From positions 1-64,000 of the forward strand of contig JAGLUW010000013.1 in the NCBI GenBank assembly GCA_023134145.1: a stretch of DNA of 64,000 nt. The letters run 5' to 3'. Of the stretch, positions 39,738 through 51,845 are shown piece after piece. The DNA comes from Sulfuriflexus sp. Its GTDB lineage: Bacteria > Pseudomonadota > Gammaproteobacteria > AKS1. Position 1 is the first letter of the stretch. Each line of letters opens with the position of its first letter. Made by a program: the position numbers and the translations under genes. Below the pieces are notes generated by a model that was not told the DNA's origin, did not search any database, and saw only the letters and a list, made by a program, of their open reading frames with translations.

Positions 39738-39791
39738 GAATTACTGCCCATTTTTTGCACGTCACCTAATCACTGATATCTGCTTTTTGCC

Positions 39792-39825
39792 CGTCATTGC
39801 GAGGAGCGCAGCGACGTGGCAATCC
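39792..39825 (+). repeat. GC-rich palindromic interspersed repeat, copy 1
   Basis: A 34-nt element beginning CGTCATTGCGAGGAGCGCAG and ending in GGCAATCC. Its outer ATTGC/GCAAT arms are inverted. The same sequence type is a widely seen dispersed intergenic repeat in many proteobacteria. A diverged copy in the same orientation lies at 42712-42745, on the other side of the FNT-kinase pair; 29 of 34 positions match. Confidence 0.75.
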
Positions 39826-39881
39826 AATCAATCTATAAAGCTTTTTAATAGAAATAGCTGCCGCACCAATCTGAAAATACA

Positions 39882-39898
39882 CGCACCATAATAGTGCA
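39882..39898. promoter_or_regulatory. NtrC-like operator upstream of FNT
   Basis: CGCACCATAATAGTGCA matches the NtrC consensus TGCACC-N5-GGTGCA at all but the first base and the inner right base. Another GCACCA half site lies 20 nt upstream (39863), about two helical turns away, so two dimers could bind side by side. The operator centre is about 100 nt upstream of the -24 element, a normal enhancer distance. Confidence 0.6.
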
Positions 39899-39982
39899 AT
39901 ATGCCTAGCGTAGATTTCATAAAGTAGTTATCTAGTAAAATAATTTCATATATAACAATAAGATATAAAACCTCACCTGTTC

Positions 39983-39998
39983 TGGCACTACTATTGCA
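39983..39998 (+). promoter_or_regulatory. sigma-54 (RpoN) core promoter of the FNT gene
   Basis: TGGCAC-TACTA-TTGCA is a full match to the -24/-12 consensus, with the invariant GG (39984-39985) and GC (39996-39997) separated by exactly 10 nt. Transcription would start near 40008 and leave a ~77-nt leader. The rpoN gene is at 50.4-51.8 kb. Confidence 0.85.
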
Positions 39999-40085
39999 AT
40001 CGTTCTGGTAGCAATCAACATACTTATAGAAATGGCTCTTAAATGATCCACGAATATTAATTTAGATTTCAAAGAGGAAGTCACG

Positions 40086-40895
40086 ATGTCGTACTTAGAA
40101 CCAACAGAGTTTGTTACAAAAATGGTGGATGCGGGAGAATCCAAGGTTTACATGTCCACAAAGGACACACTGATTCGTTCCTTTATGGCGGGTGCAATTT
40201 TAGGACTTGCTGCGATATTTGCTATCACTGTTGCTGTTAAAACAGGCTCGCCTCTAACAGGTGCAATCCTTTTCCCTGTTGGCTTCATTATGTTGTATTT
40301 AATGAAATTTGATCTCCTAACTGGCGTGTTTACCTTAGTACCACTTGCTCTCTTTGACAAAAGAGCGGGCGTCACTGTAAACCAAGTATTACGAAATTGG
40401 GGACTGGTATTTCTAGGCAACTTTGCAGGCGCACTCACGGTCGCTTTTATGATGTCATTTGTTCTGACCTATGGATATAGCGCTGATGGTGGTGCGCTGG
40501 CGGCAAAAGTAGCAAGTATTGGTGAATCGAGAACGTTGGGTTATAAATCACATGGTGTTGATGGTTGGTTTACGATTTTCATTCGCGGCATGTTATGTAA
40601 CTGGATGGTTTCAATGGGTGTTGTAGGCGCAATGATCTCAACATCGGCAAGTGGCAAGATGATGGCGATGTGGATGCCGGTTATGCTGTTCTTCTTTATG
40701 GGTTTTGAGCACTCAATTGTTAATATGTTTTTGTTCCCTTTCTCTATGATCATGGGTGGTGAATTCACTATCTTTGATTACTTTGTATGGAACGAGATCC
40801 CGACTGTTTTGGGTAACTTGGCAGGTGGTCTACTCTTAGTGGGTCTTCCGTTGTATTACACCCACGTAAGAACAAGCCCAACCCGTAGTATATAA
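40086..40895 (+). CDS. formate/nitrite transporter family (FNT) channel
   Basis: 269 residues, six to seven membrane helices. Family motifs include LLTGVFTLVPLALFDKR near residue 77, RGMLCNWMVSMG near residue 169 and the pore-helix GFEHSIVNMFLFP with the central histidine near residue 207. FNT channels pass formate, nitrite or hydrosulfide across the inner membrane. Its NtrC/sigma-54 control region argues for nitrite uptake for assimilation rather than formate export. It is followed by a kinase/phosphatase gene on the same strand. Confidence 0.93.
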   Translation: MSYLEPTEFVTKMVDAGESKVYMSTKDTLIRSFMAGAILGLAAIFAITVAVKTGSPLTGAILFPVGFIMLYLMKFDLLTGVFTLVPLALFDKRAGVTVNQVLRNWGLVFLGNFAGALTVAFMMSFVLTYGYSADGGALAAKVASIGESRTLGYKSHGVDGWFTIFIRGMLCNWMVSMGVVGAMISTSASGKMMAMWMPVMLFFFMGFEHSIVNMFLFPFSMIMGGEFTIFDYFVWNEIPTVLGNLAGGLLLVGLPLYYTHVRTSPTRSI

Positions 40896-40913
40896 AATAT
40901 AAGATGTACGTAA

Positions 40914-40945
40914 AAACTTCAGTCACCTGTTAGTGGCTGAAGTTT
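40914..40945 (+). terminator. stem-loop between FNT and kinase genes
   Basis: AAACTTCAGTCAC, loop CTGTTA, GTGGCTGAAGTTT: a 13-bp stem with one T-G pair, starting 18 nt after the FNT stop. No U-run longer than three follows, so it may be a leaky terminator or an RNA-stability stem that lowers kinase output relative to the channel. Confidence 0.5.
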
Positions 40946-40986
40946 CTTACATACAAAAGTTATTAAAATTCTTGTAAGCTGAGCGA

Positions 40987-42708
40987 ATGTCTAAGCAATT
41001 AAAAATATCTGTTGGACAGCATTCCGATAAAGGCCGCAAGGAAGTCAATCAAGACTTCCATGGTGTTTCAATACCTAAGGAACCGGCCTTAACCTCGAAA
41101 GGTATTGCTGTTGCGTTGGCAGATGGGATCAGCAGCAGCAATGTAAGTGACATTGCTAGTAAAGCCGCTGTTAAAGGATTCTTGGAAGATTATTTTTGTA
41201 CCTCAGAAACATGGTCAGTAAAGAAATCTGCAGAACGCGTATTAATGGCAACCAACTCCTGGTTGCATTCACAGACTCAACAGAGCCAACATCGTTTCGA
41301 TAAAAATAAAGGTTATGTCTGTACCTTAAGTGCAGTAGTGATTAAATCAACAACCGCACATATTCTCCACATTGGTGATTCACGTGTTTATCGTTTGCGT
41401 GATAATAAATTAGAACAATTAACTGAAGATCACCGCCACTGGATCTCATCAGAGAAGAGTTATCTAGGCCGTGCTATGGGCATGAACCTGCAGTTGGATA
41501 TTGATTACAAGGCCTTATCGGTAGAGAAGGGCGATATATTCGTTTTGGCAACCGATGGTGTTTATGAATTCGCCGATGCTGATTTTATTATTTCTAAAAT
41601 AAATGAATGTGCTGATGACCTCGAAAAAGCAGCAATGGATATTGTTGGTGAAGCCTACGAGAAGGGAAGTACGGATAATCTTACCGTGCAGATTGTTAAG
41701 GTTGATGAATTACCGAATCAAGCTGCCAACGAGATTTTTCAGAAACTAACCAAGCTGCCGTTTCCTCCAATACTGGAACCACGAGAAACATTTGACGGAT
41801 ATAAAATTATTCGTGAAGTGCATGCTAGTAGTCGAAGCCATGTTTATCTTGCGGTTGATATTGAAACAGACATGCAGGTTATTATAAAAACACCTTCTGT
41901 AGATCTTCGTGATGATCCTGCTTATCTTGAACAGTTTCTCATGGAAGAATGGATTGCGCGGCGCATAAACAGCGCCCACGTATTAAAACCTTGTACACAG
42001 AAGCGTAAACGTAACTTCTTTTACATTGTGACTGAGTACATCGATGGTCAGACCTTAGCGCAATGGATGATCGACAATCCCAAGCCAGACGTAGAAACAG
42101 TACGCGGTATTGTTGAACAAATTGCTAAGGGTTTAATGGCATTTCATAGAATGGAAATGTTGCATCAAGATTTGCGGCCAGCAAATGTCATGATTGATAA
42201 TACGGGTACGGTGAAGATTATTGATTTTGGTTCTACTCGCGTTGCCGGTATTCAGGAGATAACCACAGAAATCGAACAAAGTAATATACTCGGTACAGCA
42301 CAATATACGGCGCCGGAATATTTTTTGGGTGAACGAGGTACTTCTCGTTCAGATTTATTTTCCTTAGCGGTTATTACTTATCAAATGTTATCAGGACGAC
42401 TTCCTTATGGCACAGAAGTGCCAAAATCTCGTACAAAATCTGCACAACGAAAATTGAATTATCAGTCGGTATTAGATGATGATCGTGAAATTCCTGTTTG
42501 GTTTGATGAAGCGCTGAGAAAGGGCCTTCATCCAAACCCTTATAAACGCTATGAAGAGTTGTCTGAGTTCTTATTTGATCTTCGTCATCCGAATAAAGAA
42601 TTTATTAGTAAAACCCGTCCACCATTAATGGAACGGAATCCGATACTCTTTTGGAAAAGTGTTTCGTTTATATTGGCTGTAACGGTTGCGGTGTTGTTGG
42701 TTAAGTAA
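40987..42708 (+). CDS. PP2C phosphatase / Ser-Thr protein kinase fusion, membrane anchored
   Basis: 573 residues. N-terminal PP2C domain (~5-240) with metal-binding aspartates D23 (NQDF), D46 (LADGIS), D190 (LATDGV) and D230 (STDNLT). Then a Hanks-type kinase (~270-540) with Lys301 (VIIK), the catalytic loop HQDLRPAN (Asp395, Asn400) and DFG at 413-415. The arginine of HRD is replaced by Gln. A C-terminal helix (~552-572) anchors it, catalytic parts in the cytosol. Such fusions occur near nitrate/nitrite assimilation genes in other gammaproteobacteria. The partner FNT gene 91 nt upstream is the obvious candidate target or partner; this is an inference. Confidence 0.92.
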   Translation: MSKQLKISVGQHSDKGRKEVNQDFHGVSIPKEPALTSKGIAVALADGISSSNVSDIASKAAVKGFLEDYFCTSETWSVKKSAERVLMATNSWLHSQTQQSQHRFDKNKGYVCTLSAVVIKSTTAHILHIGDSRVYRLRDNKLEQLTEDHRHWISSEKSYLGRAMGMNLQLDIDYKALSVEKGDIFVLATDGVYEFADADFIISKINECADDLEKAAMDIVGEAYEKGSTDNLTVQIVKVDELPNQAANEIFQKLTKLPFPPILEPRETFDGYKIIREVHASSRSHVYLAVDIETDMQVIIKTPSVDLRDDPAYLEQFLMEEWIARRINSAHVLKPCTQKRKRNFFYIVTEYIDGQTLAQWMIDNPKPDVETVRGIVEQIAKGLMAFHRMEMLHQDLRPANVMIDNTGTVKIIDFGSTRVAGIQEITTEIEQSNILGTAQYTAPEYFLGERGTSRSDLFSLAVITYQMLSGRLPYGTEVPKSRTKSAQRKLNYQSVLDDDREIPVWFDEALRKGLHPNPYKRYEELSEFLFDLRHPNKEFISKTRPPLMERNPILFWKSVSFILAVTVAVLLVK

Positions 42709-42711
42709 TGC

Positions 42712-42745
42712 CGTTATTGCAATGAGCGCAACGACGAGGCAATCC
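42712..42745 (+). repeat. GC-rich palindromic interspersed repeat, copy 2
   Basis: Begins CGTTATTGCAATGAGCGCAA and ends GGCAATCC; 29 of 34 bases equal copy 1 at 39792. It starts 4 nt after the kinase stop codon. The remaining gap to 42897 has short stems (for example CGAGT/ACTCG near 42830) but no gene. Confidence 0.7.
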
Positions 42746-42897
42746 ATTCAGAAATGATTTTTTGAGAGGATTTGCAAGATGAACATGATTTTTTTAGTGG
42801 TCGGATTTTAAACCCCTGTCGAAAAGACGAGTATTTTAAGACTCGCTGATAAAAGGTCTGCTTCCGGCCGTGACTTCAATCCAGTCTATCCTCTTGA

Positions 42898-50357: not shown

Positions 50358-51845
50358 CTACATAAGGCGCTTACGTTCATTGGAAGGTGGTATCGACATC
50401 GCTTCGCGGTACTTGGCAACGGTACGACGGGCGACATTGATACCCTGTTGAGCCAATATTGAAGCGATTTTATTATCGCTTAATGGCTTTTTCGGTTCTT
50501 CAGCAGCAATTAGCTTTTTAATTAAGGCACGTATCGCTGTTGATGAACATTCTCCACCACTTGCGGTACTAACGTGGCTAGAGAAAAAATACTTTAATTC
50601 AAAAATCCCTCTTGGGGTGTGTAAATATTTACGTGTGGTCACGCGTGAAATAGTCGACTCATGCATTTCTACCGTTTCAGCAACGTCATGAAGCACTAAG
50701 GCTTTCATTGCTTCTTCACCATGTTCGAGAAAACCACGTTGTCGTTCAACAATACAAGTGGTGACCTTGAGCAAGGTTTCGTTACGGCTTTGTAAGCTTT
50801 TAATGAGCCAACGTGCTTCCTGTAAATTATCTTTCAGGTAATTATTGTCTTTGCTGTTGTCAGCACGTTTAATCAGGTTGGCATAGGTGCTATTAATATT
50901 TAGCTTAGGCGCAACGTCTGGGTTGAGTTCGACTTTCCAGATCCCTTTTACTTTGCGCACATAAACATCAGGCACAATATATTCGGTTCTTTGGCTAGAT
51001 ATTTGGCTACCGGGTCGAGGGTTGAGTGAACGTATGAGAATGACGACATTTTGTAATTCATCTTCACTCAGCTTCATCTTGCGCATAAGTTGGTTGTAGT
51101 CATGCCCTGCTAATAGATCGAGATGATCATGAACCAGTTTCATGGCTAATTCGCGATGCGGCGTATCCGCGTCGAGTTGCCCGAGTTGTATGTACAGGCA
51201 ATCACCGAGGTCGCATGCGGCAACGCCAGTCGGTTCGAAATTTTGTATTTGTCTTAATACGGCTTGAATTTCGTCAATTTCAAGTTCAGGAATATCAGCA
51301 ATGAGACTTCCATGAATTTCATCGAGAGGTGTTGTGAAATAGCCATCTTCAGTAATGGCGTCGATAATAGCGACAGCAATTTGCACATCGGTATCACTGA
51401 ATGGCGTTAAGCTCATTTGCCAAGTGAGATGATCTTGTAGGTTCTCAGAATCATAACTACTGATATCGATTTCACGATCATTAAATGAACCACCTGATGC
51501 AGGACCTGATAGAGATTGGTAATTAGTCGGTTCGTAGATATCTTCCCATGAGGTATCAACCGGTAGCTCATCGGGCATTTCCGATTGTGCCATTGCCTTA
51601 TCGGTATCGGCAGCCGCGATCTCTTCGCTGGCACTGGCTTTTTCTTTAAGTGGGGAATTTTCTTCTGGTGAATTTACACTAGGTTCGTCAGGTTCGGTAA
51701 CCTCAAGCATGGGGTTACTTTCGAGTGCTTCTTGAATTTCACTCGTTAGCTCTAACGAAGACAACTGTAACAAGCGTATTGCCTGCTGCAGCTGCGGTGT
51801 CATGGTTAAGCTCTGGCCCAGCTTGAGCTGGATGGACTGTTTCAT
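50358..51845 (-). CDS. rpoN: RNA polymerase sigma-54 factor
   Basis: 495 residues. Region I is Gln/Leu-rich ([23 protein letters not shown]), region II acidic (~55-120), and region III carries the core-binding part, the helix-turn-helix and the RpoN box [10 protein letters not shown]. It directs transcription at -24/-12 promoters such as the one at 39983. The gene order lptA-lptB-rpoN-hpf-ptsN is the standard one. Confidence 0.97.

Follow-up and report, generated by a model that had tools for sequence, protein, structure and literature searches.

A predicted nitrogen-starvation module of Sulfuriflexus sp. pairing an FNT anion channel with a membrane-anchored PP2C-type phosphatase/kinase

Uptake of nitrate and nitrite by bacteria halts fast once ammonium appears and, to our knowledge, no dedicated post-translational mechanism has been established for the FNT or NarK-type transporters of proteobacteria. 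Here we describe two adjacent forward-strand genes within a 64,000-nucleotide stretch of Sulfuriflexus sp. (assembly GCA_023134145.1, contig JAGLUW010000013.1, positions 1 to 64,000; hereafter the window), which encode an FNT anion channel and a protein, called KIN, that associates a PP2C-type phosphatase with a protein kinase domain. By its domain order, its length (about 570 aa) and its near full-length homology (43-62% identity), KIN belongs to the family annotated as "bifunctional protein-serine/threonine kinase/phosphatase" in GenBank and PLSDB, of which we take PA1782 of P. aeruginosa, located beside nirBD/nasA, to be an example. Matches at 80% coverage or more occur in 32 plasmid records, with at most 62% identity (for example on plasmids of Azospirillum, Methylobacterium, Cupriavidus and Acinetobacter). 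A clade paired with FNT channels, a partner specificity and a sigma-54/NtrC control are not described in the literature found for this family; keyword searching brought up no work on either the FNT-kinase pair or a KIN-type kinase, which is weak evidence as subscription papers were mostly outside its reach.

Three other described systems resemble parts of this module. Kinases of the PknB/StkP type with a separate PP2C (Stp/PstP) share with KIN the kinase fold (PknB 5u94) and an opposing phosphatase; KIN is, however, one chain with the PP2C domain first and an anchor in its tail, and has neither PASTA domains nor a glycine loop. The cyanobacterial PphA/PII control of nitrate uptake also employs a PP2C in nitrogen control with a transporter as final target: PphA of Synechocystis dephosphorylates PII (PMC4285133), and cyanobacterial PII controls the nitrate/nitrite ABC transporter (PMC6603209). 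PphA is a free protein acting on PII, whereas KIN is a phosphatase-kinase fusion encoded behind the transporter gene. Finally, FNT channels encoded beside cynS in Nitrospira, Nitrososphaera and Nitrobacter have been proposed as cyanate importers (PMC10753782, PMC12342949, PMC6311188); the same FNT-cynS linkage is frequent among the loci considered here, and the accessible portions of these reports do not mention a kinase/phosphatase partner.

The FNT gene (40086-40895, 269 aa) and the KIN gene (40987-42708, 573 aa) are separated by a 91-nt spacer (40896-40986). The original prediction, which was made from the window alone and saw an FNT gene followed after 91 nt by a membrane-anchored PP2C/kinase fusion, is borne out by the open reading frames, the profile matches and the C-terminal helix of the KIN model; it overlooked the sigma-54 promoter, the NtrC box, the hairpin between the genes, the KIN paralogue located behind a nitrate transporter and the cyanase gene frequent in relatives. 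The channel matches PF01226 over its full length (profile positions 1-240 of 240, 221 bits against a cut-off of 34.6) and shares with FocA, NirC and LCIA the FEHS histidine and the LCNW motif, LCIA (9v2a) being the nearest solved structure. Its FEHSIVNM segment carries H208, which aligns to the FocA/LCIA histidine and is invariant across the clade. In contrast to these known channels, it belongs to a separate, tightly conserved clade and lies below the equivalog cut-offs of TIGR04060 and NF008595 (FocA or NirC; 128 against 290 and 57 against 293 bits), as it does for every NCBIfam FNT model.

The association of KIN with a transporter gene is strongly conserved. When 84,980 species genomes were scanned with KIN, 39 loci were retrieved from alpha-, beta-, gamma- and zetaproteobacteria and from Campylobacterota; most are FNT-linked, because the method detects close relatives and the query itself is FNT-linked. 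Wherever the upstream DNA is present (38 loci), KIN is preceded on the same strand by an FNT gene, either adjacent or one small gene apart. As a check on the bias towards FNT-linked loci, genes for KIN, for FNT and for NarK-type (NNP) transporters were sought in 369 genomes of the class of the window, the NNP identity being supported by TIGR00886 (296 bits, slightly below the cut-off of 311.7) together with context. This survey yielded 134 KIN genes in 113 genomes, with an FNT gene within 2.5 kb for 29 and an NNP gene for 79; of these 108 transporters, 105 (27 FNT and 78 NNP-type) lie upstream of KIN on the same strand, typically less than 150 nt away. Transporter-KIN pairing is thus far beyond chance. 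Separation of the pair in relatives had been named as evidence against the original prediction; the pair is instead kept, with FNT upstream in 38/38 loci of the scan and 105/134 KINs directly behind a transporter in the class. The other 26 KINs include several at contig ends and some by nirB-nirD-nasA, by an amtB-type and an NNP-like gene, or by a nitrate-type ABC transporter (neighbour names at these loci were read from the sequence by eye). Conversely, about seven genes of the same FNT clade are not accompanied by KIN; their neighbours are nirBD or cyanase, or a nitrate-reductase-type gene is close by. Since FNT occurs beside nirBD or cyanase without KIN, the channel can presumably work alone with KIN as an accessory; such KIN-less FNT-cynS and nirBD-FNT loci are what would be expected if KIN is a regulator.

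The type of KIN follows the type of transporter. In a tree of 122 KIN rows, a single clade of 63 rows (support 100) contains every one of the 61 FNT-linked KINs, together with two rows that have no transporter label; the FNT label requires 3 changes, compared with 40.9 after shuffling. The NNP-linked KINs form an outer grade, and of the two rows sister to the FNT-linked clade (G066 and G302), one occurs with an NNP transporter and nirBD, so that the simplest history would be a single recruitment of an NNP-linked KIN to FNT. The window genome itself holds both types: a second protein, KIN-B (G000:C8:4431-6101), is 49% identical to KIN and is encoded directly behind an NNP transporter, with a divergent nirB. 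The nirB gene accompanies FNT-type and NNP-type KINs alike, and because the KIN clade follows the transporter type, we take the transporter, rather than the reductase, as the partner of KIN. The original prediction had left the choice between the channel and a nitrite-assimilation enzyme; the match between KIN type and transporter type favours the former and makes the nitrite reductase less favoured. At another locus (L001:1384-5986), the two modules stand in tandem: FNT-KIN is directly followed by an NNP transporter gene, after which a second KIN-like gene begins.

The region upstream of FNT carries the signals of nitrogen control. A sigma-54 (-24/-12) promoter (TGGCACTACTATTGCA, 39983-39998, forward strand) is preceded by an NtrC-type enhancer box (GCACCATAATAGTGC, 39883-39897, +), and each is the only exact match of its kind within the window; as single-mismatch counts equal those expected by chance, the case for both sites rests on conservation. 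A MAFFT footprint across five genus copies of FNT shows that the NtrC box (GCAC-N7-GTGC in 5/5), the -24/-12 element, an upstream half-site that may be a second NtrC contact (GCACCAAYNTGA, 39863-39874, +, kept in 5/5) and an AT-rich, possibly IHF-like block of putative role in the enhancer-promoter interval (ATAACAATAAGATA, 39952-39965, +) are kept while the rest diverges. Sigma-54-type sites with at most one mismatch precede 25 of the 42 FNT genes with no nir gene next to them (shuffled mean 0.35) and 36 of the 45 NNP genes (shuffled mean 0.20), but only 1 of the 14 FNT genes that nir genes precede. Both operons of the window genome have perfect sigma-54 and NtrC sites, and in the NNP-KIN-B region (G000:C8:2858-6104, L046) the sigma-54 sites face both ways around the NtrC box, one of them towards nirB. 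Also present in the genome are an NtrC gene (740 bits against a cut-off of 558.6) and, in the window at 50370-51818, rpoN, the gene for sigma-54 (512 bits against 277). On this strong sequence evidence, FNT-KIN is predicted to belong to the NtrC/sigma-54 regulon, in agreement with the "nitrogen-regulated" of the original prediction. At a distance of about 8 kb from FNT-KIN, rpoN has hpf- and PTS-type genes nearby, an ordinary arrangement.

The spacer between the genes contains a 13-bp stem-loop (40914-40945, +; arms AAACTTCAGTCAC and GTGGCTGAAGTTT), a probable 3'-end stabiliser or attenuator, and folds at -26.5 kcal/mol (z -4.74). Over 59 loci, the 75 nt past the FNT stop have a mean z of -3.0, with 41 below -2, compared with a mean z of 0.1 and none below -2 in a control stretch inside the FNT gene, and a median z of -0.5 past NNP stops. 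The position of the hairpin is kept among the genus copies while its stem sequence varies, which suggests a 3'-end stabiliser or partial terminator that would give more channel than regulator.

KIN is composed of three parts. The PP2C domain (residues 1-241, 40987-41709; PF13672, PP2C_2 match at residues 17-214) has tPphA as best chains, 5d2u/2j82 by sequence and 2y09 by fold. Its metal ligands D23, D46, D131, D190 and D230, together with N231, do not vary among 100 relatives (61 FNT-linked and 39 NNP-linked), a comparison from which the most divergent NNP rows were omitted; the third-metal Asp is among the aspartates conserved in these 100 members, so that the earlier description of a PP2C with all its metal aspartates stands. 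The kinase domain (residues 270-535, 41794-42591; PF00069 match at residues 282-522, 126 bits against a cut-off of 31.7) resembles PknB 5u94 in a fold library (TM 0.86 by target length). Its K301 (VAIK Lys), E320 (alpha-C), D395, N400 and D413 (DFG) are invariant in 100/100 members, but the GxGxxG of subdomain I is absent: the window reads HASSRS and the family typically HAS-x-R-[ST]-[HQ] (residues 279-285, 41821-41841). HRD is likewise HQD in the window, its arginine being mostly Q across the FNT- and NNP-linked family. Given the missing GxGxxG, KIN was filed as a kinase-fold protein with an atypical subdomain I; the "Hanks-type kinase" first proposed therefore holds for the profile, the fold and the catalytic residues, and fails for the glycine loop and the HRD arginine. 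We favour a catalytically complete but loop-atypical kinase. The family-wide loop might represent a new mode of holding the ATP phosphates, or an altered use of the nucleotide. Finally, the model of KIN (22 related sequences, mean pLDDT 88.7) ends in a hydrophobic helix (residues 552-572, 42640-42702) with a conserved W556, which is, according to the model, the membrane anchor.

Taken together, we suggest that FNT-KIN is a two-gene nitrogen-starvation module in which KIN would be a phospho-switch dedicated to its transporter, a weak-acid anion channel, the likeliest of the readings considered, for which we put the balance close to even and slightly on the side of doubt. Under nitrogen limitation, NtrC and the sigma-54 RNA polymerase would transcribe FNT and then KIN, the hairpin would favour more channel than regulator, and the C-terminal anchor would hold KIN at the membrane, where its two opposing activities may determine how far the transporter encoded with it, or the complex of that transporter, is phosphorylated. 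On return of ammonium or glutamine, uptake would then be closed within minutes, sooner than by dilution of the proteins. The sister module (NarK-type nitrate transporter and KIN-B, with divergent nirB) would do likewise for nitrate. That the FNT channel is itself the substrate of KIN is what we infer from this arrangement. An extension of this proposal, in which each nitrogen-oxyanion or cyanate transporter of proteobacteria (FNT or NarK-type) is gated by its own membrane-tethered kinase/phosphatase, with a cognate PP2C/kinase clade for each transporter class, is rather unlikely on present evidence. If true, the module would supply the missing fast post-translational shut-off of nitrate, nitrite and cyanate uptake, through a kinase that has no glycine-rich loop; the transporter-KIN pair is widespread in proteobacteria, is kept with the transporter and yields a clear prediction.

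Several points weigh against a transporter-dedicated switch. A conserved neighbourhood indicates shared function and not a substrate, and a few KINs adjoin nirBD-nasA or an amtB-type gene instead of following FNT or NNP. Both activities of KIN are predicted and phosphorylation by it is presumed, while its use of ATP is not certain because the glycine-rich loop is replaced. The FNT and NNP types of KIN are distinguished by residues of the PP2C and kinase domains, with 0 of the top 40 in the membrane helix, and comparison of the 67 KIN-linked FNTs with close unlinked ones revealed no FNT Ser/Thr specific to the linked members. The membrane helix was discarded on the former count as the element of partner specificity. 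Also discarded was the N-terminal YMSTKDT of FNT (residues 22-28), which the original prediction had offered as the target of the kinase: S24, T25 and T28 are present in 64, 53 and 61 of the 67 KIN-linked FNTs and in 8, 9 and 9 of 11 close KIN-less FNTs, and since they are about equally kept without KIN, the motif is not specific to kinase-linked channels. T263 in the C-terminal tail (67/67 linked against 7/9 close unlinked FNTs) is a weak lead to a KIN-dependent site.

Other explanations share part of this evidence. KIN could act on an assimilation enzyme or its electron supply (NirBD, NasA or cyanase), the linkage to transporters being operon structure only, since one of these enzymes is encoded nearby in many loci and a distant KIN branch stands directly before nirB-nirD-nasA with no adjacent transporter (L077, L079, L080). 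We find this quite unlikely, as the KIN clades track the transporter type while nirB occurs with both, cyanase and nirBD alternate beside one KIN clade so that no enzyme is common to all, and the window pair adjoins no reductase or cyanase in a genome without detectable cyanase. A scheme in which the transporter does the sensing and KIN provides the output, flux through FNT or NNP altering the activity of KIN, which would modify NtrB, NasT, PII or similar, appears less improbable though still unlikely: apart from its anchor, KIN shows no recognised sensor domain, so that a partner must supply the signal, and the one-to-one match of transporter and kinase types suits a receptor and its effector as well as an enzyme and its substrate, but clustering of the FNT-KIN neighbours showed no conserved regulator gene.

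The resemblance of the PP2C half to tPphA of Thermosynechococcus, the nearest solved chains by both sequence and fold, brings PII itself into question, KIN then modifying GlnB/GlnK at the membrane and controlling the transporter indirectly, as PphA acts on PII (PMC4285133) and PII on the nitrate/nitrite ABC transporter (PMC6603209) in cyanobacteria. This appears very unlikely: tPphA, a small bacterial PP2C of generic type, is matched weakly (51.6 bits); the known modification of PII in proteobacteria is uridylylation, with PII phosphorylation described in some cyanobacteria only (PMC4285133); and PII would not explain transporter-specific KIN clades. Equally slim are the chances that only the phosphatase acts, the kinase half being a pseudokinase or an ATP sensor, or that KIN partners the channel without any catalysis. 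The HAS-x-R-[ST] loop and the mostly replaced HRD arginine of FNT- and NNP-linked KINs would suit such a protein, yet a dead kinase would be expected to drift, and all 100 FNT- and NNP-linked members compared keep the VAIK Lys, the alpha-C Glu, the catalytic Asp, the Asn and the DFG Asp.

As to cargo, the 61 FNT-linked loci comprise 18 with cyanase, 13 with nirB/nirD, one with both and 29 with neither within the available sequence; in one relative of the genus (L173:8579-11761), cyanase sits between FNT and KIN. In the window, the pair persists although no nir or cyn gene stands beside it. A single enzyme substrate common to all KINs was rejected because nirBD and cyanase alternate as neighbours and the window pair adjoins neither. 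Cyanase was not detected in the window genome (89% complete), whereas nirB is present, which makes nitrite the likelier cargo of the window channel; in other lineages the cargo is probably also cyanate, to judge from the cyanase-bearing loci. The list first proposed (nitrite, formate or hydrosulfide) did not consider cyanate, which may be a cargo as well as nitrite. FNT-cynS pairs without an adjacent kinase (L148, L149, L150, L153 and L154) also make FNT a candidate cyanate channel outside nitrifiers, which would link this channel family to cyanate use beyond that group.

A 35-nt repeat flanks the FNT-KIN pair (39792-39826 and 42712-42746, with 5 mismatches between copies), and copies with at most 3 mismatches occur at only two other sites of the genome. 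Mobile insertion of the pair was therefore set aside, relocation being possible because genus relatives hold the pair in different neighbourhoods; the repeats could be traces of such a relocation.

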